DNA of 36,092 nucleotides from Chthoniobacteraceae bacterium. GTDB taxonomy: Bacteria; Verrucomicrobiota; Verrucomicrobiia; Chthoniobacterales; Chthoniobacteraceae. The stretch is from the NCBI GenBank assembly GCA_947471505.1, contig CANIWM010000062.1:1-36092 (forward strand). The letters run 5' to 3'. Positions 85 to 13,950 of this stretch are shown here, piece after piece. Both the position numbers and the translations under genes were made by a program. Each line of letters begins with the position of its first letter. Position 1 is the first letter of the stretch. The notes under the pieces are model-generated. The model was not told the DNA's origin and made no database searches. It was given only the letters and a program-made list of their open reading frames with translations.

Positions 85-266
85 GTGAAATCCAACCCGC
101 GCCGCTCCCCCTCGCCCTCAACCCTCAACTGCCGTTTTTAGGATCAATCTCAGCAGCATTCGCTTTATTTTTTACGTGTGCCGCGCACGCCGCACCTCCG
201 GCGAATGACAATTTTGGAGTTGCGACTGTCGTTACAGCCAATACCGGCACGATCTCGGGCACCAAC
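85..266 (+). other. Likely signal-peptide coding segment, apparently frameshifted
   Basis: The frame of the Calx-beta gene is open back to a TGA at 24-26 but has no ATG, GTG or TTG between there and 267. Codons 141-197 nevertheless encode a hydrophobic stretch (A-F-A-L-F-F-T-C-A-A-H-A-A), then P-P-A-N-D-N-F, the same start seen in the internal PPC-like repeats. A GTG at 85 in the +1 frame encodes a basic n-region (V-K-S-N-P-R-R) and hits TAG at 139-141. One extra T in the T5 run at 135-139 would join it to the signal-peptide frame. This is either a sequencing or assembly indel, a true frameshift, or a non-standard start. Confidence 0.5.
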
Positions 267-3200
267 GTGGAGGCGACGAAACAGGCGAACGAGCCGGACC
301 ACGCGGGCAATATCGGAGGACAGTCGGTGTGGTATCGCTGGGTGGCTCCGACTACCGGGCTGTATGAGTTCAACACCGTGGACAGCGATTTTGATACTTT
401 GCTGGCCGTTTATACGGGAGCGCCGGTAGGCAATCTTGTGGAGATTGCGTCGAACGACGAAGCGGTGGAAGGCGGGGTGTCGCGGGTTATTTTCCAGGCG
501 ACGCAGGGGACGACCTACCGCATCGCCGTCGATGGGTGGGAAGACGGTGCGGGATTCGTGGAGGAAGGAATTATCACGTTGAACTGGGCGTCGGTGCAGA
601 GACCTGTGAACGATGACTTTTCCGCAGCGACCGCGCTCTCTGGCCGCAGCGCGGTTCTGGCGACTTCCAACCGGGCGGCAACGAAGGAAACCGGCGAGCC
701 TGACCACGGTGGCGACACGGGAGGAGCTTCGATTTGGTACCGCTGGACGGCTCCAGAAAACGGCACCGTGCTGATTACTTATGACGATACGGATGGAATC
801 GCGCCGCTCGTCGGGTTCTATACCGGCAATTCCGTCGGCGCGCTGACTCCAGTGGTTCTCAACGAAGTTGTGACGGGCAGCTTCCGATGCAGTGTGGTGG
901 CCGGGACGATCTACCGTCTGGCGTTTGACGGTAATGGCGGGGAGACCGGCAATATTGCGGCGACGTTGGGATTTACTGGAGCGAACGACGAGTTCAGCAA
1001 ACCTCGCGTTATCGCCGGCGCGAGTGGGGCCCTCGCGGACGATATCGCCGCTGCAACTGCCGAGGTCGCGGATGTCGGGCTGGTTCCCGAGATTACGGTG
1101 GACACGGCGACTCTCTGGTATCAATGGACCGCTCCGGCGAACGGGCCGGTTTGGTTTGGTGCGGATGGTGGGAATTTTACTGGTACGCCCTCGGAGCCGA
1201 TGGCTGTGCGAGTCTTCACCGGCAGCACGCGCGAAACCCTCGTTCACGTGCCCGATACAGACAGCGACACCGCGCAAATTTTCACCGCCGTTGCTGGAAC
1301 GACTTACCGGATTTTGGTGCTGAGCGAGTTTGGCGACGCGGGGGATTTTACCCTGCGTTGGATTCAGGCTGGGCCCGCGACCAATGACAATATCGCAAGT
1401 GCGACGGTCCTGAGCGGAAACACCGGAGCCGGTTCCGCGACGTTGATTGGAGCGACGGTGGAATCCGGCGAGGGGCTGACAGACGGCTCGGTTTGGTATC
1501 GCTGGACCGCGCCATCTGCCGGAGTCTTGGCGATATCGACTCCATCTCAGGCGAGCATCTTTACAGCGCGGGGAACGACGAATCTTTTTGCAAACTTAGC
1601 GGGCGTCCGCACGGTCGGCGTCGCGGCTGGCGAACGCATCACATTCTGTCTCACCGCCGATGCACATGAAGTGCCGACTGCGGCGTTCTTCTACGCATTT
1701 ACTGCGGGGGCATCGATCGTGGAGATCGAGACGGCTGTTGGAGACGAGTTGCTCGAGCGCGACGCCCCGACGGCCACCCTCACGCTTCGGCGCGAGACCG
1801 GCGCGATTGCAAGCCCCGCTACGGTGGTTCTCACTCCGACGGTCGGTGCGGGCTTTGCGGGTGAAGGCGTTCACTACGCATTCTCGCAATCGACGGTGAA
1901 TTTTCTGGCGGGTGAAACCCAAAAAACGGTGACGCTGGGCGTGATCAACAACGCGATTGCGGAAGGCCCCCTTTTCATCGAGGCATCGATCGTGGCTGGA
2001 GCCAATGCAGTGATCGGCGACAGATCGACCGTGAACTTTGTTCGCTACGACGATGAAGATGATCCGGCAAACAATCGGATCGCAAACGCCACGGTGCTTG
2101 CCGGTTCGACGGGGACGGAGGCAGCGACAACAATCGGCGCGGACCCCGACCGAGCGACCGATCCCGGCTACGCAGAATCGGAAGCGGGAGGCGGCGCGCT
2201 GGAGTTTGCGGTTCCAGAGACGGTTTGGTACCAGTGGACTGCTGCGACGACTGGCCCGATTGTATTTCGTGCCGCACAGGACACCGATTCACAATTGAAC
2301 ATCACGCTCGCGGTATTTGACGGACCGACGGCGGCGGCAGCCGTTGTGGCGCAAGCAAATGCGGAGGACGGACAAGGTGCCACGGTGACCGCGGAGGCTG
2401 GCTGGCTCGCGGAGGCCGACAAGACTTACTACATCGCAGTCGCAGCGGCGGACGTCCTATCGAACGAGCCGCTCGGCACGCCATTCGAGCTCTCTTGGCA
2501 GCCACCCGCCGCAGGGTTCGTCAGCATTGCGGACGTCTCGGCAACAGAGGGCGTCGATGGCACTGCCGTGCTGACGATCACGCGAACGAACGGGACGGCT
2601 GCTTTCGACGTCGAGGTGAGCACCTCCGACTCCGGTTTCGCAACGGAGGGAGATGATTACGACGGAGTTTTCACGACAATCAGCTTCGCCGTGGGTGAGC
2701 TGACAAAGTCGGTCCCCGTCACAATTATCGACGACCCTTTGAAAGAATCGCCCGAGTTTCTCGAAAATGGCGAGACGTTCTCGGTTATCATTAGCAGCAG
2801 TGACTCCGATGTATTTATTGCGCAGAGTGTTGCGAAGGTCACGATCCTCGACGACGAGACTGGCGCGCTCGTTTCGCTCGACCCGCTTGGGATCGATGAC
2901 GAGACAGCGCAAGAGGACGCGGGTGCTTTCCAGATCACAGTGAACCGGGGCGGCATCACCACCGGCGCCGCGTCTGTGGACTACACACTCACCGCAGGCA
3001 GCGCCACATTGGCCGACGTGAACCTCAGCGGCGGAACGGTGGACTTTGCACCAGGCGAAACAAGTAAGGTCATCACGATTCCTATCATCGACGATTTCCT
3101 CGATGAACCAGTGGAAACATTCGCGCTCACCCTTTCAAATCCGGGCGCAAATACGACGCTGGGCGAGCGAACAAGTGCAGTGCTCTCGATCGTCGATGAA

Positions 3201-4967
3201 GACATCCCCGGCGTCCTCGCATTCTCCGCCGCAACCGCGTCCGCGACTGAGCCCGCCGGAACGGTGAATCTCACCGTCGCCCGGACAGACGGTAGCGACG
3301 GCGACGTGAGCGCGACATTTACCGTCATTGCGGGAAGCGCGACGGCGGGCGCGGACTATTCGACGACGACGGGCACAGTCACGCTGCTCAACGGAGAGAC
3401 CTCCAAAACGATCGCAATCGCGCTGCTCGACGATTTCGTGGACGAAGCCAACGAGACTTTCACCGTGACCCTCAGTGGCCCGACGGCGGGGGCGACGCTG
3501 GGGGCGCAACGCAGCGCGACCGTTACACTCGTGGACAACGATGAACCGGGAGTGCTCGCATTTTCGGCTGCGGTTTTCCCCACGCCGGAATCGGCAGGGA
3601 CGGTGCAGCTTACCGTCACTCGCACCTCGGGAAGCGATGGAGCGGTGAGCGTGAACTTCTTTACGACCGCAGCGACAGCAGTCGCTGGCGTGCATTACGC
3701 GACATCGACAGGCACGGTCCAATTCGCCCATGGCGAGACGACGAAAAATATCAGCATCCCGCTGATTGATAACTCGTTCGACGACCCAGACCGACAGTTC
3801 ACCGTGACGCTCAGAAACCCGACCGCCGGCGCGACTCTCGGCACGCAGACCAGTGCTTCTATCGTAATCTCGGATAACGACACATTTGCGGCAGAAAAGA
3901 CCGCATTTTCAGCCCTGCTGAAAAAGGACGGCATTGCCCGAGGAAGTATTGTGGTGACGACGACCACCAAGAGCAAAGTCACCGTGCAGACGCTCGTGGG
4001 CGCGACAAAATACACATTCATAGGAGTGCTCGGCGTCGATGGTTTGGCGACCCTTGTTTTCCAGCCGAAGGGCCGCTCGGCGAAGACGCTTTCGCTCCAA
4101 GTCGGCGGCGACGCTATCCGGGGGACGCTGAACGACGGCGATGGAAACATTTACGTGTTTAACGGCTCCGAAAACGACACCGGCACAAAGGCCGCGCCTG
4201 TCGATGGCGCGGCAAACTACACGGCGCTAATCCAAAATCACGCCGCTCCGAACAACGGACTTCTCAAGGGCCGTTTTCCCCAAGGATACGGCTGGGTGCA
4301 GCTTGCGGTCGGCGTTGACGGAAAGGCGAAAGGCAATGGCAAGTTGTCCGATGGCACAGCTCTGGCGTTTGGCGGAGTCGTGGATGTCAGTGGCGAACTC
4401 CCGGTTTTCGTCACGCTCTATGCCACGAAAGCCGGCTCCATCGCCTTTACGCTGAAGTTTGACGCCGCACAGCCCGCGACCGACGCGACAGCCGTCGGGG
4501 TGCGCTGGGTAAAGCCCGCAGCCCCGAACGACAAACTTTACCCGCTCGGCTGGCCGCTCGGCATCGACGCGGACCTTACGGCTTCGAAGTTCTTCGCTCC
4601 AGCGCAGCCCACCGCGAAGAATCCAAACCCTCCCTACATTGCCGGGACTCACAACCTCCTCGGTCTTGCCGCTCCATCACAAGTGACCGTAGCAATTACC
4701 GACGGCGGCACGCCGGGCCTCTCGAACGACGCAAGCATCGATGCGAAGAGCAAGGTCACCGTTGGCGGCGCGACCACTGGAGCCACCGCGGCCACGACGC
4801 TTGCCGTCACCCTGAAAAGCAACGGCACCCTGTCCGGCGAATTCGCACATGTTCCGACGCAGTCCCGAGGGAAACTCAGCGGTGTCGTTCTGCAAAAGGC
4901 GCACACCGCTGGCGGATTCTTCATCGGCACGAATGCTTCGGTCGGTGCTGTTTGGATCGAGCCATAG
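267..4967 (+). CDS. Giant secreted Calx-beta / PPC-like repeat surface protein
   Basis: Large extracellular, all-beta protein with no catalytic domain seen; the likely role is adhesion or cell-surface structure (inference). Numbered from the GTG at 267, residues 1-480 contain four copies of a ~110-residue PPC-like unit, each with an N-D-x-F-type start, a G-E-P-D-H or similar stretch and a S-V-W-Y-R-W-T-A-P core. A degenerate Calx-beta lies at about 485-600 and a fifth PPC-like unit at 601-750. Four Calx-beta domains follow at 751-865, 866-980, 981-1093 and 1094-1205, each ending in an acidic D-D-E or D-N-D turn typical of calcium binding. Residues 1210-1566 form a beta-rich C-terminal module homologous to the end of the protein at 11470-13950. 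267 is only the first standard start in frame: coding clearly continues upstream through a signal peptide (codons 141-200), so the true N-terminus is earlier (see 85-266). Confidence 0.85.
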   Translation: MEATKQANEPDHAGNIGGQSVWYRWVAPTTGLYEFNTVDSDFDTLLAVYTGAPVGNLVEIASNDEAVEGGVSRVIFQATQGTTYRIAVDGWEDGAGFVEEGIITLNWASVQRPVNDDFSAATALSGRSAVLATSNRAATKETGEPDHGGDTGGASIWYRWTAPENGTVLITYDDTDGIAPLVGFYTGNSVGALTPVVLNEVVTGSFRCSVVAGTIYRLAFDGNGGETGNIAATLGFTGANDEFSKPRVIAGASGALADDIAAATAEVADVGLVPEITVDTATLWYQWTAPANGPVWFGADGGNFTGTPSEPMAVRVFTGSTRETLVHVPDTDSDTAQIFTAVAGTTYRILVLSEFGDAGDFTLRWIQAGPATNDNIASATVLSGNTGAGSATLIGATVESGEGLTDGSVWYRWTAPSAGVLAISTPSQASIFTARGTTNLFANLAGVRTVGVAAGERITFCLTADAHEVPTAAFFYAFTAGASIVEIETAVGDELLERDAPTATLTLRRETGAIASPATVVLTPTVGAGFAGEGVHYAFSQSTVNFLAGETQKTVTLGVINNAIAEGPLFIEASIVAGANAVIGDRSTVNFVRYDDEDDPANNRIANATVLAGSTGTEAATTIGADPDRATDPGYAESEAGGGALEFAVPETVWYQWTAATTGPIVFRAAQDTDSQLNITLAVFDGPTAAAAVVAQANAEDGQGATVTAEAGWLAEADKTYYIAVAAADVLSNEPLGTPFELSWQPPAAGFVSIADVSATEGVDGTAVLTITRTNGTAAFDVEVSTSDSGFATEGDDYDGVFTTISFAVGELTKSVPVTIIDDPLKESPEFLENGETFSVIISSSDSDVFIAQSVAKVTILDDETGALVSLDPLGIDDETAQEDAGAFQITVNRGGITTGAASVDYTLTAGSATLADVNLSGGTVDFAPGETSKVITIPIIDDFLDEPVETFALTLSNPGANTTLGERTSAVLSIVDEDIPGVLAFSAATASATEPAGTVNLTVARTDGSDGDVSATFTVIAGSATAGADYSTTTGTVTLLNGETSKTIAIALLDDFVDEANETFTVTLSGPTAGATLGAQRSATVTLVDNDEPGVLAFSAAVFPTPESAGTVQLTVTRTSGSDGAVSVNFFTTAATAVAGVHYATSTGTVQFAHGETTKNISIPLIDNSFDDPDRQFTVTLRNPTAGATLGTQTSASIVISDNDTFAAEKTAFSALLKKDGIARGSIVVTTTTKSKVTVQTLVGATKYTFIGVLGVDGLATLVFQPKGRSAKTLSLQVGGDAIRGTLNDGDGNIYVFNGSENDTGTKAAPVDGAANYTALIQNHAAPNNGLLKGRFPQGYGWVQLAVGVDGKAKGNGKLSDGTALAFGGVVDVSGELPVFVTLYATKAGSIAFTLKFDAAQPATDATAVGVRWVKPAAPNDKLYPLGWPLGIDADLTASKFFAPAQPTAKNPNPPYIAGTHNLLGLAAPSQVTVAITDGGTPGLSNDASIDAKSKVTVGGATTGATAATTLAVTLKSNGTLSGEFAHVPTQSRGKLSGVVLQKAHTAGGFFIGTNASVGAVWIEP

Positions 4968-5225
4968 CCGGCAACGTCGAGCGGTTCGATTGCCGAGTCA
5001 CCAACCCGCCCGAAGCCGCGCGTTTCTTCCTCTGCGCGCGTTGGTTCCTGCGGAATTGACCGATGGCAGTTTTGCGCAACCTTCCTCAGCTACACCGCGA
5101 TGCAATGGATAAAGGCTGGCACTTCGGAAAACTCGCGACCAAAGCGCCGACAGGGCTGGGTCAGAAACGCTAAGTTACGAACGGCTTTGCCGTTGTCCTT
5201 CTGCACGCTATACATCTCGAAATTC

Positions 5226-7796
5226 ATGACGCCTCACCAAACATCCACTCTGCTTGCAACGCTCCTCGCGGCTTCTGCGCTTCCGGCTTCTGCGGAGCCG
5301 CGTTCCTTTAATCAGGACATCCGTCCGATCCTCTCGGACAAATGCTTCGCCTGTCACGGGAGCGATGCGAAACATCGTAAGGCGGAACTGCGGCTGGATA
5401 CGCAGGAGGGCGCTTTTGGAAAGGCCGAGAGCGGCGCGGTCGCAATCGAGCCCGGCGACCCGAAGGGCAGTGAGCTGTGGGCGCGCATTAATGCCTCGGA
5501 CGAGGATGAAATCATGCCGCCGCCGAAATCGCACAAGACGATTTCCACAGCGGAGAAAGAGCGGATTCGCGAGTGGATCGAGCAGGGCGCAAAATATCAG
5601 AAACACTGGTCCTTCGAGGTGCCGGTGAAAGTGGCGCTGCCGGCGACGACCGGACGCAATGCAGTGGATGCGTTCATTTTTGATCGCCTGAAACGCGAAG
5701 GACTCGCACCTTTGCCGGAGGCGGACAAAACGACGCTGATTCGCCGTGCGAGCCTGGCGCTTACGGGCCTGCCGCCGTCGGTCGCGGTGGTGGATGCGTT
5801 TCTCGCCGATGCTGCGCCGGATGCTTATGAAAAGGCCGTGGACCGGCTGATGGCCTCGCCGCAGTTTGGCGAAGAAATGGCGAGGCATTGGCTCGATGTG
5901 GCGCGCTATGGCGACACCCACGGGATGCATCTCGATAACGAGCGCTCGATGTGGCTTTACCGCGATTGGGTGGTCGGCGCGTTCAACCGGAATCTGCCTT
6001 TCAGCCACTTCACCATCGAGCAACTCGCCGGCGATTTGCTGCCAAACCCGACGGACGATCAACTCATCGCGACGGGCTTCAACCGCTGCAACGTCACGAC
6101 CGGCGAGGGCGGCGCACTGGATGCGGAGTTCATCTTTCGCTACGCCGTGGACCGCACCTCGACGACGGTGCAGACGTGGATGGGAATGACCGCGGGCTGC
6201 GCGGTTTGCCACGACCACAAATTTGACCCGCTCGCGCAGAAGGAATTCTACCAGCTTTACGCGTTCTTCCACAGCTCCGCCGATCCGGCGATGGACGGCA
6301 ACGCGCTGCTCGTCTCCCCGACTTTGAAGACCATCTCGCCCGAGCAAAAGCAGAAGCTCGCCGAGAAGGACGCGCTGCGCACAGCGGCGGCAAAGCGGCT
6401 GGAGGATGCGATGAAGTCACTCGAATACGTGGACCCAGCGACGCTGGGAGACGTGACCGAGCCGGACGCGTCTTTGTCTCAATGGATCGCCAAGCACGAG
6501 GGCAAGGACACAAAAGAACTCCCCGCCGAAGTGAACAAAATCCTTAAGCGCAAGGCCGACGCGAAACGCTCTGCCGAGCAGGAAAAACAACTCCGCGACT
6601 ACTTCCTCGCCAATGTGTACCCGAAGACCAAGTCCATCATCGGCCCGCTCCAAGCGGAAGTTGCCAAGATCGAAGGCGAGCGAACGGAGTTCGATAAAGC
6701 GCTTCCTGCAAGTTTCATCATGCGCGACCTTGAGAAACCGCGCGACAGTTTCGTGATGATCCGCGGCGCTTACGACAAGCCCGGCGAGAAGGTCTCCCGC
6801 GATGTGCCCGCGGTTTTTCCACCGCTACCCAACAAAGAGAACCCCACGCGCCTCGACCTCGCGAAATGGCTCGTCGCCGACAACCACCCGCTCACCGCAC
6901 GCGTGACCGTGAACCGTTTCTGGCAGCAATTCTTCGGCGTCGGGCTCGTGAAAACCGCAGGCGATTTCGGCTCGCAGGGACAACCGCCGAGCCACCCGGA
7001 ATTGCTCGACTGGCTCGCCGTGGACTTCCGTGAAAACGGCTGGGATGTGAAAAAACTCGTCCGCCTTTTCGTCACCAGCGCCACGTTCCGGCAGTCCTCC
7101 GACGCCCCCGCCGCGCTATGGACGCGCGACCCGGAGAACCGCTTGCACGCTCGCGGCCCGCGGGTGCGGCTCGATGCCGAAGTCGTGCGCGACAATGCTC
7201 TCGCCGTCTCCGGCCTGCTCGATCTCACGATGGGCGGACGTGGCGTTCGCCCCTACCAGCCGCCGAATATCTGGGAGCCCGTCGCCTACATTCGCAGCAA
7301 CACCGCGAACTACAAGGCCGACACCGGCAACGCGCTCTACCGCCGCAGCCTTTACACATTTTTGAAACGCACCGCGCCGCCGCCGTTCATGGCGAATTTC
7401 GACGCACCGTCCCGCGAACAATCCTGCACGCTTCGCGAGCGGAGCAACACGCCGCTCCAGGCGCTCCAGCTCATGAACGACGTGCAGCAAATCGAAGCCG
7501 CCCGCGTATTCGCGGGAAAGATCATCACGCAAGGCGGCGCGACACCGGCCGAGCGAATCACCTTCGCCTATCGCACCGCGCTCGCACGCAAACCCGCGCC
7601 CGAGGAAATCGAAATCGTGACCGCCGCATACAAACAACACCTCGCCGCTTACGAGCAGACTCCCGCGGAAGCCGCGAAGTTCATCCGGCAGGGCGAGTCC
7701 ACGCCGCAGGCCGGAATCCCCGAGCCCGAATTCGCCGCATGGACGCTCATCGCGAGCCTCGTGCTGAACCTCGACGAAACCATCAACCGCAACTGA
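5226..7796 (+). CDS. PSCyt1-DUF1549-DUF1553 secreted cytochrome-like protein
   Basis: 856-residue exported protein of the planctomycete/verrucomicrobial family that combines a c-type haem domain with DUF1549 (PSCyt2) and DUF1553 (PSD1). The ATG at 5226 gives a clean signal peptide (residues 1-23, ending A-S-A). PSCyt1 carries C-F-A-C-H at residues 40-44 and an M-P-P-P motif near residue 98. DUF1549 covers roughly 150-360 and includes a second C-A-V-C-H at 325-329. A charged, probably helical spacer follows, and then DUF1553 from about 540 to the end, with a R-x-x-V-N-R-x-W-x-x-x-F-G-type motif. The stop is one base before the DUF1501 gene, so the two are almost certainly co-transcribed. These pairs are widespread in PVC bacteria and often linked to polysaccharide degradation, but the biochemical role is not established. 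No strong Shine-Dalgarno site is visible. Confidence 0.93.
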
Positions 7797-7797
7797 C

Positions 7798-9267
7798 ATG
7801 AATCCGATCATCGAACACCAGCTACTGCAAACCCGCCGCCAGTTCTTCGGAAACGCCGGCCTCCGACTTGGCGGCATCGCGCTCGCGCAAATGCTCGGCA
7901 ACGCGGCAACCAGCAACGCCGCCGCCGCCACCAGCCGTGTGCACCCGCCGCTGCCCGGCTTCCCTCATTTCGCGCCGAAGGCGAAATCGCTTATCTACGT
8001 CCACATGAACGGCGGGCCGTCGCAGCTCGACCTGTGGGACTACAAGCCCGATCTGCAAAAGCGCTTCAACGAAGAATTGCCCAAGTCCGTGCGCGGAGAA
8101 CAGCGCATCACCGGCATGACCAGCGGGCAGAGCAAACTCCCCGTCGCGCCTTCGTTGTTCAAATTCGCGCAGCACGGCAACTGCGGGCGCTGGGTGAGTG
8201 AACTTCTCCCTCACACGGCGAAAATCGTGGACGAAATCGCGCTCATCAAAACCGTCCACACCTCCGCCATCAACCACGACCCCGCCTGCACGTTCCTGTT
8301 CACCGGCGCGGAAGTCCCCGGACGCGCCAGCCTCGGCTCGTGGCTCGGCTACGGCCTCGGCAGCGAGAACAACGACCTCCCCGCGTTCGTCTGCCTCACT
8401 CCGCAGTACCCGAAGGACAGCGACGGACAAGCGCTCTTCTCCCGCATGTGGGGCAGCGGCTTTCTCCCCACGCGCCACGCGGGAGTCACCCTGCGCGGCT
8501 CCGGCGATCCCGTTCTCTATTTGAAAAATCCCGACGGACTTGCGACCAGCGAACGGCGCTCGATGCTCGACGCGCTCGGCAAGCTGAACCAGCGCGGTTT
8601 TGACAAAATCGGCGACCCGGAAATCCAGACCCGCATCGCTCAATACGAAATGGCATTTCGCATGCAGACCAGCGTCCCCGAGCTCGTGGACCTCAGCACC
8701 GAGCCGCAATCCGTCCTCGACCTCTACGGCCCGGAAGTTTCGAAATCCGGAAGCTTCACCCACAGCGCGCTCATGGCCCGGCGGCTCGTCGAACGCGGCG
8801 TCCGCACCGTGCAAATCATGCACCGCGGATGGGACCAGCACGGCGCGCTGCCCACCCACATCCGCAAGCAGTGCGCAGACACCGACCGCGGCGTCGGAGC
8901 GCTCGTCGCCGACCTCAAACAACACGGCCTGCTCGAAGACACACTCGTCGTGTGGGGCGGCGAATTCGGCCGCACCGTCTATTCGCAAGGCACGCTGACC
9001 AAGGACAACTACGGACGCGACCATCACCCGCGCAACTTCTGCATGTGGATGGCGGGCGGCGGAATCAAGCCCGGCATCAGCCTCGGCGAGACCGACGACT
9101 TTTCGTACAACATCGTCGAGTCGCCCGTTCACCTAAACGAGATCAACGCCACCATCCTGCACTGCATGGGCATCGACCACACGCGCTTCAGCGTCCCCGT
9201 CCAAGGCCTCGACCTCCGCCTCACCGGCGTAGAGCCCGCGCGCGTGGTGAAGGAGCTTCTGGTGTAG
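7798..9267 (+). CDS. DUF1501 family exported protein
   Basis: 489-residue protein of the DUF1501 family, which belongs to the alkaline phosphatase/sulfatase-like superfamily. The N-terminus has a twin-arginine-type motif (R-R-Q-F-F-G, residues 13-18) followed by a weakly hydrophobic stretch and A-A-A-A, suggesting Tat export. Family hallmarks include [13 protein letters not shown] near residue 75, W-D-Q-H near 345 and W-G-G-E-F-G-R-T near 386, followed by a G-R-D-H-H-P stretch; these are candidate metal-site residues. It starts one base after the upstream PSCyt1/DUF1549/DUF1553 gene, its usual partner. The substrate is unknown; the superfamily suggests hydrolysis of a phosphate or sulfate ester, but this is inference. 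Confidence 0.93.
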
Positions 9268-9522: not shown

Positions 9523-10239
9523 ATGCGCATCTTTGTAACACTGATTATTTTCGCCACAGCCGTGCTGGCTCAGACTCCAGGCTTCCAAGCGCCCAAGGAA
9601 GTCGCGCCGGGTATTTTCGAGATTGGGGCGATCCGCCTCGATAAGAACGCGCTGACGGTCACGTTCCCGACGAAGGTGAACATGGTGGATGGGCTCATTG
9701 AGTACACTATCGTGACGACGAAAGGACCGACGCATGAGAGTGTGCTGGCCACGGAGGTCTCCCCTCAAAATGTCCACATGGCGATGCTGCTGCTCGGGGC
9801 GAAAGGCATGGCTATCGGCAAGGATGCGCCGCCGCCGGAGCGGATTGATGCGGAGTATTTGGCGAAGGCCCCGAAACTGGAGGGCGACCGCATTTTCCTC
9901 ACCTGCAAATGGAAGGACGCGGAAGGGAAGGAGCAGATTGCGCCGCTGGAACGCTGGCTCGTCCGGCGCTCGGAAGTCGCGAAGAAAAAGCCCACCGAAA
10001 TCACTGCGGAAGATGGGCCGTGGCTCTACACGGGCTCCTTTTTGCACGAGGGGCGCTTCAATGCGGAGGTGCAGGGCGTCTTCGGAGCGGTGGTCACTTT
10101 TCCCGGCGCGCTCATCAACAATCCTCGCAAGGGCTCGAACGACGACCACATGTGGTTTGCGAAGACAGCCGTCATCCCGCCCGTCGGGACGCCCGTGGAA
10201 CTCACCATCAAACTCGAACCAGCCAAAGCCAACAAATGA
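9523..10239 (+). CDS. YdjY-domain secreted protein
   Basis: 238-residue exported protein with a signal peptide (residues 1-16, ending V-L-A) and a YdjY-type domain. The recognisable core is a V-N-M-V-D-G-L-I-E-Y segment followed by T-H-E-S-V-L and V-S-P-Q-N-V-H-M-A-M-L-L-L-G-A, residues about 50-95, typical of secreted YdjY-like proteins. Such proteins have no firmly assigned activity. Its stop codon overlaps the start of the toroid protein gene (ATGA), so the two are translationally coupled. The 255 bases upstream contain no recognisable gene; no strong Shine-Dalgarno sequence precedes the ATG. Confidence 0.8.
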   Translation: MRIFVTLIIFATAVLAQTPGFQAPKEVAPGIFEIGAIRLDKNALTVTFPTKVNMVDGLIEYTIVTTKGPTHESVLATEVSPQNVHMAMLLLGAKGMAIGKDAPPPERIDAEYLAKAPKLEGDRIFLTCKWKDAEGKEQIAPLERWLVRRSEVAKKKPTEITAEDGPWLYTGSFLHEGRFNAEVQGVFGAVVTFPGALINNPRKGSNDDHMWFAKTAVIPPVGTPVELTIKLEPAKANK

Positions 10240-11423
10240 AACGCCGCACTTTTATCCTCACCGCCACAGCCGTCGCCGCCGTCATCGCGACGAGCACTTT
10301 CCAAAGGAAAGCAACCGCCGTCGAACCACTGCCGAAAGACGAAAAGAATGTCTCTTTTCGCAATGAAATCCGCGACGTGATTACGCGGGGACTGGACTAC
10401 CTCGCCAAGCAGCAAAATGCAGACGGGAGCTTCGGTGCGGACCTCACACACCCGGCGCTCAGCGCGCTGCCGCTCATCGCATTGCAGCGGGAGCCGACGG
10501 GACGTTTCACCACCTCGCCGCAGCCTGAGATGATGAAAAAGGGCTACACGTATTTGCGGGGATTCGTGCAGCCGGATGGAGGCATTTACAACCCGCAGAA
10601 TGGGCTCGCGAATTACAACACGTCCGTGGCGCTGCTCGCCATTTTCGGAGCGAACGAACCGAAGGACGAAAAGATCATCCGCGACGCTCGCGCTTACGTC
10701 GTCGGGCAGCAGGCCAGCGGCCTCGCGCAGCCCGGCACCGATGGCGGCATCGGCTACGGCACTGTGGGAGCCAGCCCGAAGCGCGGGCATCCCGACCTCG
10801 ATAACACGCTCATCGCGCTGGAAGCCCTGAAAATTACCAAAGGCACCATTGCCGACAAACCCGACGCCAAAGACCTGAACTGGCAGGCCGCGATAGACTT
10901 CGTCACGCGCTGCCAAAACTTGCCCGGCGCGAACAAGATGGACTGGCCCAGCGGCGACCCAGCCAACAAAGGCGGCTTTGTCTATTACCCCGGTTTCAGC
11001 AATGCCGGAAAGACCGAGCTGGAAGGCGGGAAAGTCGCGCTCCGCAGTTACGGCTCGATGAGCTACGCCGGGCTGATGAGCTTTATCTACGCAGACCTCG
11101 CGAAGGACGATCCGCGCATCGCCGCTGCGATGGAGTGGCTGCAAAAAAACTACACGCTCGACGAAAATCCCGGCCTCGAAATGCAGGGCTACTATTACTA
11201 CCTGCACCTCATGGCCAAAGGGCTCGCCGCCTCCGGCACCACCACGCTCGACATCAAAGGCAAGCAAGTGGACTGGCGGCGTGAACTGGCTCTGCGCCTG
11301 ATGAGGCTGCAAAAACCCGACGGCTCATGGTCCAACCCGGAGCCTCGCTGGAAGGAAGCGAACCCCGTTCTCGTCTCGGCATACTGCACGATGGCGCTGA
11401 GCATCATCTACCAGCAACTCTGA
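10236..11423 (+). CDS. Exported alpha/alpha-toroid (squalene-cyclase/prenyltransferase-like) repeat protein
   Basis: 395-residue protein with prenyltransferase/squalene-oxidase-type repeats forming a terpenoid-cyclase-like alpha/alpha toroid. Residues 1-29 look like an export signal (K-R-R start, then a hydrophobic stretch). Repeat signatures include Q-N-A-D-G-S-F-G near 63, Q-P-D-G-G-I-Y near 110, G-G-I-G-Y near 170 and Q-K-P-D-G-S-W near 360. The cyclase D-x-D-D catalytic motif of squalene-hopene cyclase is not visible, and the N-terminal signal places it outside the cytoplasm, so it is unlikely to be a hopanoid cyclase. The start overlaps the YdjY gene stop by four bases. Function unknown; protein-protein or polysaccharide interaction is possible. 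Confidence 0.82.
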   Translation: MKRRTFILTATAVAAVIATSTFQRKATAVEPLPKDEKNVSFRNEIRDVITRGLDYLAKQQNADGSFGADLTHPALSALPLIALQREPTGRFTTSPQPEMMKKGYTYLRGFVQPDGGIYNPQNGLANYNTSVALLAIFGANEPKDEKIIRDARAYVVGQQASGLAQPGTDGGIGYGTVGASPKRGHPDLDNTLIALEALKITKGTIADKPDAKDLNWQAAIDFVTRCQNLPGANKMDWPSGDPANKGGFVYYPGFSNAGKTELEGGKVALRSYGSMSYAGLMSFIYADLAKDDPRIAAAMEWLQKNYTLDENPGLEMQGYYYYLHLMAKGLAASGTTTLDIKGKQVDWRRELALRLMRLQKPDGSWSNPEPRWKEANPVLVSAYCTMALSIIYQQL

Positions 11424-11469: not shown

Positions 11470-13950
11470 ATGGCACGTTTTCCGCATACGTTCCGGCACT
11501 TTTCCATGCGGCATTGGCTTGTTATCATTCTCATCATTTCGTTTTTCGGATCGCGAGCGGCGGCCCAGAAGCCGTTTCTAAGCGGCACCCCGCTTCGGAT
11601 TACAACGTCCGAGATTTATGATGAGCGGTTGTATGTTCCCTTTCCCGGAGACGATCCCATTCCGGGGGCAAACTATCAGTTCACCATCAATATCACGGCG
11701 ACGGTGGACCCTGCCGATGCGGCGCTGTTTGATGAGACCACCGTCGTTAAGTTTACGGTCGGTGATTTCTCATTCGATGAAATCCTTGGAAATGATGATA
11801 ATTTCGACTCCACTGTAGTCGGCAAGGACAGGAGCGCGGAATTCACTTTCGAAACCTTCGACGTCAATAGTGACACGTTTCAAAATGGGGTCGTTACGGT
11901 AAATTGGGACGAGCCGATAGGGACCGGTCCGACGCAACTGCGCATTACCGCAACTTTCAATACGTTGAGCGCAGGTGTTCAGCACTATTTCGACGCGAAA
12001 ATCGAACCAGAATACTCGCTATTCGGATTCCGTTCTCATGTAGTTGCCGCGCCGGAGGCGGGCATCGACGACAAGGGTTTTGCTGAGGTCGCCTTCGGTC
12101 CTTATTCGGCATCGGCCCTCTCCTACTATGTCGTCGGCAGTTCGACCGCGACAGGGGATGATTTTCTCGTTCGTCTTACACTTTCTGGGTCTACCGATGA
12201 CTTGAAGCCCACCGGTGCCATCACCTTCCCCGCTTCAAGGGCGGTGCTTTTTAATCCGACCGCTGTTTTTACGGGCGTTACCAAAGATCGCTATCGAATA
12301 GGGAACACACAGTATGACAACTCTTCAGTGCCGACATTGGAGTATTTCCTAAGTAGTGAAAGCGGGTTGCCTATTAATCCAAGTTGGCTGACTGCCACGG
12401 TGAGTGAGAGCGTAGATACGAGTGGCAACCATTCATGGGCCACCCCTAGCGCCGTAACGCTCAATCCCGGTGCAAACTATCTGTTTCTCCAAATCACGGA
12501 TAGTGAGGGAAATTCCACCATAACCAGCGCTCGTTCCTTCCAGTATTCCACTAAGGGAAAAGTATCGCTCACGGGGGCAGCCTCGGGATTCCCAATTGGC
12601 GATTCTGGAAAGGTAGTAGGCACAGTGATGGGAGCGGGCTCTCTATTTCTAAATCCGAAGACAATCTCCGTTAAATCTAACGCTCCGGCGAGTCCGCTGG
12701 AAGACGGAAGACTGAACATCGAAGCCGGACAAATCGGCATCGCGGTAGCGAAACCGGAATTGGGCGCGATTTTCGACGGATGGACGGCCACATTTGACGG
12801 TGCGCCATTCGCACTCGACCCGCAAGAAGCGGTGAAAGAGCGCATGGTGTTCTTTACCCGTCCGAAGCTTGTCGTCGTCGGGCACTTTGTCCCAAACCCC
12901 TTTTTAACCTCTGGCTCAGGCACTTACTTCGGTGCGGCGGACGGTTCAAGCGCCCTTGAGCGCGGCACTTTTTCGGGGAAAGTATCAAAGAATGGTGCGT
13001 TTACTGGAAAAGTGCTGCTCGGCCCGCTATCTCTGTCGGTGAAAGGCAAATTCCTCGGGAGTGGCTTGTGGACAGGGATCGTCACGAAAAAAGGCGTGCC
13101 CTACACCGTTACCCTGAACGTCACCGTATCCGGCACGCCGCAGCAGATCACCGGCACCGTCACCAGTAACGACCTAAACTCCACCATCACCGCCGACTTC
13201 TCGCCATGGGTAAATAAAACCCACGAAGCGACCGCCTACGTTGGAAGCTACAACGTTTTACTTCCGGCCACCGGAGCCGTGCCGGAGGGAGTCGGATTCG
13301 GGCAGGTCGCAATCGACAAACTCGGCAAAGTTAAATTCATCGGACAAGCCGGCAATGGAACGGCGATTTCATTCAGTTCCGCGCTGTTTGAGCGGTCAGC
13401 GACAGAAGTGGTATTTCCGTTCTTCGTCGCCCTAGAGAAGGGCCTCGGCAACATCGCTGGCATCGTCAAATACGACGCGACCCAGCCCGACAGTGACCTG
13501 ACGGGGACGCTTGCTTGGTCCAAGCCGATTACCTCTAAAATCGAGCCCGCCGCCATTGACGGCCAAATTGCGCTCCACGGATCGAAGTACAACAAGCCCG
13601 CGGCGGGAACACGCGTCATCCTCGGCGCGACCGGCGCGGGGACGCTCAATATCCATAGCCCGTCGTTCACCACGCCACCGACCGGCGCGACGGTATTCCT
13701 TTCTACCAGCGCCGCCCTTCAGACAAATAACACGCTGGCTCCCGTCACTTCATCCAACTCCGTTCAAAACGTGACGTTGAAATTCACAGCAGCGACTGGA
13801 CTCTTCACCGGCAAATTCACCGACCCAGGGCTTCGCAAAACATTCACTTTCTCCGGCGCAGCGACGCAGCAGGCGAATGGCGGAGTTGGCACCGCCGCGG
13901 GGCTCTTCACACGGGGAAATCAGACGGGCTACGTCACACTCACCCCGTAG
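11470..13950 (+). CDS. Large secreted protein with InlB-like repeat and verrucomicrobial C-terminal beta module
   Basis: 826-residue secreted protein with a signal peptide in residues 1-32 (hydrophobic I-I-L-I-I-S-F-F, ending R-A-A-A; an internal ATG at codon 13 is an alternative start). Residues 33-350 are beta-rich with no family I recognise. A divergent InlB-B-repeat-like segment lies at about 400-475, with F-D-G-W-T and V-G-H-F-V-P-N-P-F. Residues 477-826 form a C-terminal module homologous to that of the Calx-beta protein at 267-4967: both share a K-[FY]-D-A-x-Q-P-x-x-D followed by W-x-K-P, and both close on a short G-x-x-x-x-x-P end. There is no PEP-CTERM or LPXTG anchor. The N-terminal half has lower GC than neighbouring genes. 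Probably surface-exposed or released; function unknown. It is convergent with the next gene, only three bases apart. Confidence 0.82.
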   Translation: MARFPHTFRHFSMRHWLVIILIISFFGSRAAAQKPFLSGTPLRITTSEIYDERLYVPFPGDDPIPGANYQFTINITATVDPADAALFDETTVVKFTVGDFSFDEILGNDDNFDSTVVGKDRSAEFTFETFDVNSDTFQNGVVTVNWDEPIGTGPTQLRITATFNTLSAGVQHYFDAKIEPEYSLFGFRSHVVAAPEAGIDDKGFAEVAFGPYSASALSYYVVGSSTATGDDFLVRLTLSGSTDDLKPTGAITFPASRAVLFNPTAVFTGVTKDRYRIGNTQYDNSSVPTLEYFLSSESGLPINPSWLTATVSESVDTSGNHSWATPSAVTLNPGANYLFLQITDSEGNSTITSARSFQYSTKGKVSLTGAASGFPIGDSGKVVGTVMGAGSLFLNPKTISVKSNAPASPLEDGRLNIEAGQIGIAVAKPELGAIFDGWTATFDGAPFALDPQEAVKERMVFFTRPKLVVVGHFVPNPFLTSGSGTYFGAADGSSALERGTFSGKVSKNGAFTGKVLLGPLSLSVKGKFLGSGLWTGIVTKKGVPYTVTLNVTVSGTPQQITGTVTSNDLNSTITADFSPWVNKTHEATAYVGSYNVLLPATGAVPEGVGFGQVAIDKLGKVKFIGQAGNGTAISFSSALFERSATEVVFPFFVALEKGLGNIAGIVKYDATQPDSDLTGTLAWSKPITSKIEPAAIDGQIALHGSKYNKPAAGTRVILGATGAGTLNIHSPSFTTPPTGATVFLSTSAALQTNNTLAPVTSSNSVQNVTLKFTAATGLFTGKFTDPGLRKTFTFSGAATQQANGGVGTAAGLFTRGNQTGYVTLTP

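Follow-up and report, generated by a model that had tools for sequence, protein, structure and literature searches.

Why do secreted proteins with unrelated upstream parts end in the same module? The question is raised by a window of 36,092 nucleotides from Chthoniobacteraceae bacterium (contig CANIWM010000062.1; the window is the whole stretch of DNA that was analysed), in which two genes encode such a pair. A sequence-only reading of the window had described the products, here called proteins A and B, as giant secreted proteins with a common C-terminal beta module, possibly a secretion or anchoring domain with a partner system. "Giant" is apt for protein A (about 1,570-1,610 residues) and hardly for protein B (826 residues). 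The relevant features are the following.

135..191, + strand: FLGSISAAFALFFTCAAHA, a hydrophobic stretch like a signal peptide, in the reading frame of protein A (translation, by eye)
267..4967, + strand: protein A, with the C-terminal module behind PPC-like and Calx-beta repeats (open reading frame; Calx-beta E 1.6e-67, five stretches)
3534..3881, + strand: last Calx-beta repeat of protein A, adjoining the module (best PF03160 stretch, residues 1135-1250)
3891..4964, + strand: C-terminal module of protein A, about 358 residues in three eight-strand units (profile E 3.5e-89; AlphaFold2)
11470..13950, + strand: protein B, with regions lacking a Pfam match between signal peptide and C-terminal module (open reading frame, translation)
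about 11470-11565, + strand: Sec-type signal peptide of protein B (translation, by eye)
12910..13947, + strand: C-terminal module of protein B (profile match E 4.6e-89)

The frame of protein A is open from base 27 and its predicted start is uncertain; the ORF caller begins the protein at 267 because the start codon is unclear. Between the two genes, positions 5100-9267 hold a PSCyt1/DUF1549/DUF1553 protein directly followed by a DUF1501 protein, a pairing familiar in Planctomycetes and Verrucomicrobia. A 504-residue open reading frame with a putative start and weak matches to squalene-cyclase/prenyltransferase toroids lies at 9909-11423.

That A and B share their last 350 or so residues is borne out by BLASTP (48.1 bits, E 3e-9, 26% identity over 378 columns, reaching both C-termini), and the motifs that had been listed for the pair are present in the alignment. 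Protein A carries KFDAAQP...D and WVKP, protein B carries KYDATQP...D and WSKP, and both end in G-x-V-x-L/I-x-P. The KFDAxQP form is restricted to these two proteins; the signature found throughout the family is approximately F-x(n)-S/T-D-x-x-G-x-h-x-W-x-[KR]-P. The module of protein A had been placed at 4000-4967. This region is indeed homologous, but it covers only the last 320 or so residues and is too short, the module extending from 3891 to 4964.

No model in Pfam or NCBIfam covers the module of A or B, and 18 modules scanned singly against Pfam gave chance-level matches only. When the window's genome (a 6.07 Mb draft in 153 contigs, 96.7% complete) was searched with a single sequence, 16 places were found, the last of which (E 0.58) is noise. 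A profile built from 16 copies detects 27 copies in the same genome, with E values from 4e-113 to 5e-25. The module is present in 25 of the 57 genomes searched as relatives. Within the window's own genus, three genomes have no copies (G002, G003 and G004), and the others have 8 (G001), 6 (G005, a 76%-complete genome), 22 (G006), 12 (G007), 18 (G008) and 27 (G009). Across the family, copy number ranges from 0 to 47 per genome.

The module is conserved over several families and classes of Verrucomicrobiota. In a sample drawn evenly from the phylum, the module was detected in 35 of 387 genomes; since few candidates were scored, the copy numbers obtained per genome are minimum values. Across 84,980 species, a scan limited to the GKLADG-type pattern of a five-sequence set returned 19 loci, all labelled Verrucomicrobiota; they belong to Chthoniobacteraceae, Spartobacteria, Opitutaceae, Verrucomicrobiaceae and records named Prosthecobacter. 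Conserved columns of the module are mostly glycines and turn residues, and do not include a catalytic set.

Some modules are nearly identical in different proteins (L074 and L078, 89% over 523 residues; L092 and L094, 93%; L084 and L085, 95%). Judged by sequence, such copies suggest that protein tails were duplicated recently, which would also have broken the assembly. In the window's genome, near-identical copies occur on contigs C2, C138 and C43, on C40 and C17, and on C60 and C52, several of them at contig ends.

The module had been said to sit always at the C-terminus. "Always" goes too far, but this is true of every readable copy in the window's genome, where 26 of 27 reach to within 30 residues of the stop codon and a contig end truncates the remaining one. 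Overall it is true of most copies: of 98 uncut copies in pooled regions fetched from many genomes, 86 reach to within 50 residues of the stop codon. Eleven of the twelve exceptions are distant relatives with an incomplete profile match, a diverged last part or a tail after the module. Among the distant copies of family f45, L104, L105 and L120 have tails of about 240-510 residues that contain GWNLIGIP-type sequence and may form an additional C-terminal domain. The twelfth exception, L140 from a Verrucomicrobiaceae-like family, has a 214-residue tail behind a full module. In tandem arrangements, a second module is carried or begun in L121 and L055. A two-unit variant that lacks unit 3 is C-terminal in 8 of 8 copies. 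The profile search found no copies in the middle of proteins or scattered as repeats beyond the tandem doublets and the few with extra C-terminal domains. The module is a real and large C-terminal domain family without an entry in Pfam or NCBIfam.

The proteins that carry the module are diverse. Pfam domains in 16 host proteins of the window's genome include CAP (two proteins), subtilase with P-domain, CotH with lamin-tail, laminin-G and Calx-beta, as well as PKD, Big (including Big_9), He_PIG and InlB-type domains in many combinations. When the hosts in this genome are compared pairwise, 276 of the 351 pairs are similar in the module and only 60 in the upstream part, which upholds the view that the upstream architectures are unrelated. 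Judged by eye, protein B and most hosts whose N-terminus can be read have a Sec-type signal peptide; no lipobox was seen at host N-termini. The module genes are scattered over the genome. Comparison of 61 neighbouring proteins revealed no family in common beyond pairs, and therefore no recurrent neighbour. A DUF1501 cluster near module genes, apparent in a crude comparison, was not borne out by this one.

AlphaFold2, applied to an alignment of 18 modules, gave a high-confidence model (pLDDT 88.4, pTM 0.87) in which 24 strands form three groups of eight. Mapped onto protein A, these are as follows, with the extent of the strands given in model residues.

3885..4184, + strand: unit 1, predicted eight-stranded barrel (model strands 6-97)
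4197..4604, + strand: unit 2, predicted eight-stranded barrel with the GKLADGT-type signature (model strands 110-235)
4647..4964, + strand: unit 3, eight predicted strands, up to the stop codon (model strands 265-359)

Units 1 and 2 are homologous (hhalign E 1.5e-4), and unit 3 is related to them more weakly. The fold of unit 3 is the least certain, because it has low confidence when units 2 and 3 are modelled without unit 1; the fold matches of that model fall almost all on unit 2.

The predicted units 1 and 2 look like the barrels at the C-termini of fHbp, haemophilin and TbpB. In VIA-align searches with module residues 1-97, the first-ranked match of unit 1 is the fHbp C-terminal barrel (Z 11.6, rmsd 2.5 over 96 residues). 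The same barrel ranks first for unit 2 in the separate model of units 2 and 3 (Z 9.9), and the best Foldseek match of the module model in the PDB is TbpB (E 3e-5). However, a designed eight-stranded barrel matches unit 2 with Z 9.4. Because the barrel fold is this generic, the likeness to fHbp and TbpB suggests a common principle and not common descent. The profile shows no homology to TbpB or fHbp when compared with PDB sequences.

There is about an even chance that the module is a C-terminal sorting or secretion domain, comparable to those of the type XI (T11SS) and type IX (T9SS) secretion systems, and that it has a putative partner. Cargo proteins of T11SS vary in their N-terminal effectors and share an eight-stranded barrel at the C-terminus (PMC12282271). 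The module resembles such cargo (TbpBBD of TbpB, the lipoprotein-C barrel of fHbp, haemophilins) in the predicted eight-stranded barrels of units 1 and 2, in the order of variable N-terminal effector and C-terminal barrel, and in export by Sec. It differs in having two or three successive barrels, where that cargo has one barrel or handle-barrel pairs, and it occurs in dozens of copies on hosts that show no lipobox and are encoded by unlinked genes. T9SS cargo likewise comprises many large secreted proteins, unrelated upstream, that end in one kind of domain and are encoded by scattered genes. The T9SS C-terminal domain, however, is an Ig-like domain of about 70-100 residues, whereas the module consists of about 350 residues of predicted barrels; the T9SS C-terminal domain families recognised by Pfam and NCBIfam do not match it. 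SprA (TIGR04189) gave zero matches in the 57 genomes, where the positive control was likewise silent.

If the module is such a signal, host proteins would enter the periplasm through their Sec signal peptides without being lipidated. An export or assembly machine of the outer membrane would then recognise the C-terminal barrels. It would move the whole protein, whatever the upstream effector, to the cell surface or into the medium. This putative dedicated partner would differ from Slam and from the T9SS machinery. The analysis itself shows a family that sits at the C-terminus of unrelated cargo, with predicted barrels in units 1 and 2, scattered genes, presence or absence as a block and no detected Slam; recognition, translocation and a dedicated partner are inferred. 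Against it stand the generic barrel fold, some non-terminal copies (L140, L104, L105 and L120) and the outcome of the search for a partner: PF04575, the DUF560/SlipAM family of T11SS outer-membrane proteins (Slam), is undetected in the window's genome, the neighbours share nothing, and the partner system suggested by the sequence-only reading was not found. A more specific version, which can be held only tentatively, is that Verrucomicrobiota possess an undescribed outer-membrane system, for secretion or surface assembly, that takes the multi-barrel module as its cargo signal and would have reached the principle of T11SS independently and with a different translocon.

Another C-terminal element occurs on dozens of exported proteins in the same genome. 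PEP-CTERM has 42 matches there, alongside one exosortase. The two elements are alike in this distribution, but the module is a folded domain of 350 residues without a C-terminal transmembrane helix or basic tail. At the C-terminal ends of the 26 readable copies there is no PEP motif, transmembrane helix or basic tail, in keeping with the observation that neither PEP-CTERM nor LPXTG is seen there. Eight genomes of genus g5 have 2-10 modules with zero exosortase and zero PEP-CTERM matches, so the module is independent of exosortase. Within the family, module-free genomes are richer in exosortases (Mann-Whitney p 6e-4 naive, 0.058 by genus). The idea that the module takes the place of PEP-CTERM is nevertheless unsupported: in the window's genus PEP-CTERM is commoner in module holders (21-42 matches, leaving aside the 76%-complete G005 with 10) than in module-free genomes (5-12). 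Exosortase and PEP-CTERM counts are discordant in some of the relatives G000-G035, for example 8 against 3 in G015 and 0 against 42 in G020.

The main rival to a sorting role is passive attachment, which is rather unlikely. Host proteins would leave the cell by general export, for instance type II secretion, and the barrels would bind exopolysaccharide, LPS or another surface component without a partner machine. A secretin gene is found in all 57 genomes, so a general export route is available; for the same reason it cannot discriminate module holders from non-holders. Ligand binding is frequent among eight-stranded barrels, and diverse, large, multi-domain cargo fits matrix proteins. The tandem doublets and the extra C-terminal domain of L140 are also easier to understand for a binding domain. 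Near-strict C-terminal placement, by contrast, would be unusual, since binding domains tend to sit anywhere; the other beta-domains of module hosts (Calx-beta, Big_9, InlB-type) are internal.

It is improbable that the module is the cargo barrel of a true T11SS, whose strongly diverged Slam-like translocon would have been missed by PF04575. The best matches of units 1 and 2 are T11SS cargo barrels, the layout of effector and C-terminal barrel is that of the cargo, and PF04575 matches weakly in five of the 57 relatives. These weak matches do not track the presence of the module. In the window's draft genome PF04575 finds no Slam even at E 10, where a diverged Slam is possible, and none is detected in the copy-rich G006, G018 and G014. 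The 18 modules have no Pfam match up to E 10 to the known cargo barrel families (PF01298 TbpBBD, lipoprotein C), and thus no sequence homology to known cargo. Verrucomicrobiota are unmentioned in the T11SS literature that was searched.

Least probable of all is a shuffled structural end-cap without a sorting role, spread by tail duplication for stability or protease resistance: the near-identical modules in different proteins do indicate recent duplication, but a mere cap would not readily account for the absence of the whole family from three genomes while genus-mates hold 6-27 copies. Conservation across several families and classes of the phylum also speaks against it.

Were it used for sorting, the module would label dozens of proteins per genome for secretion or surface display, in a phylum in which routes of export have received little study. 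The exosortase system was itself found from PEP-CTERM by phylogenetic profiling (PMC1569441). If the module is a sorting signal, its profile and the contrast in copy number within one genus would offer a similar handle on the machine that reads it. Even if it serves plain attachment, the domain family is large, reaching 47 copies in one genome, and is absent from Pfam and NCBIfam.
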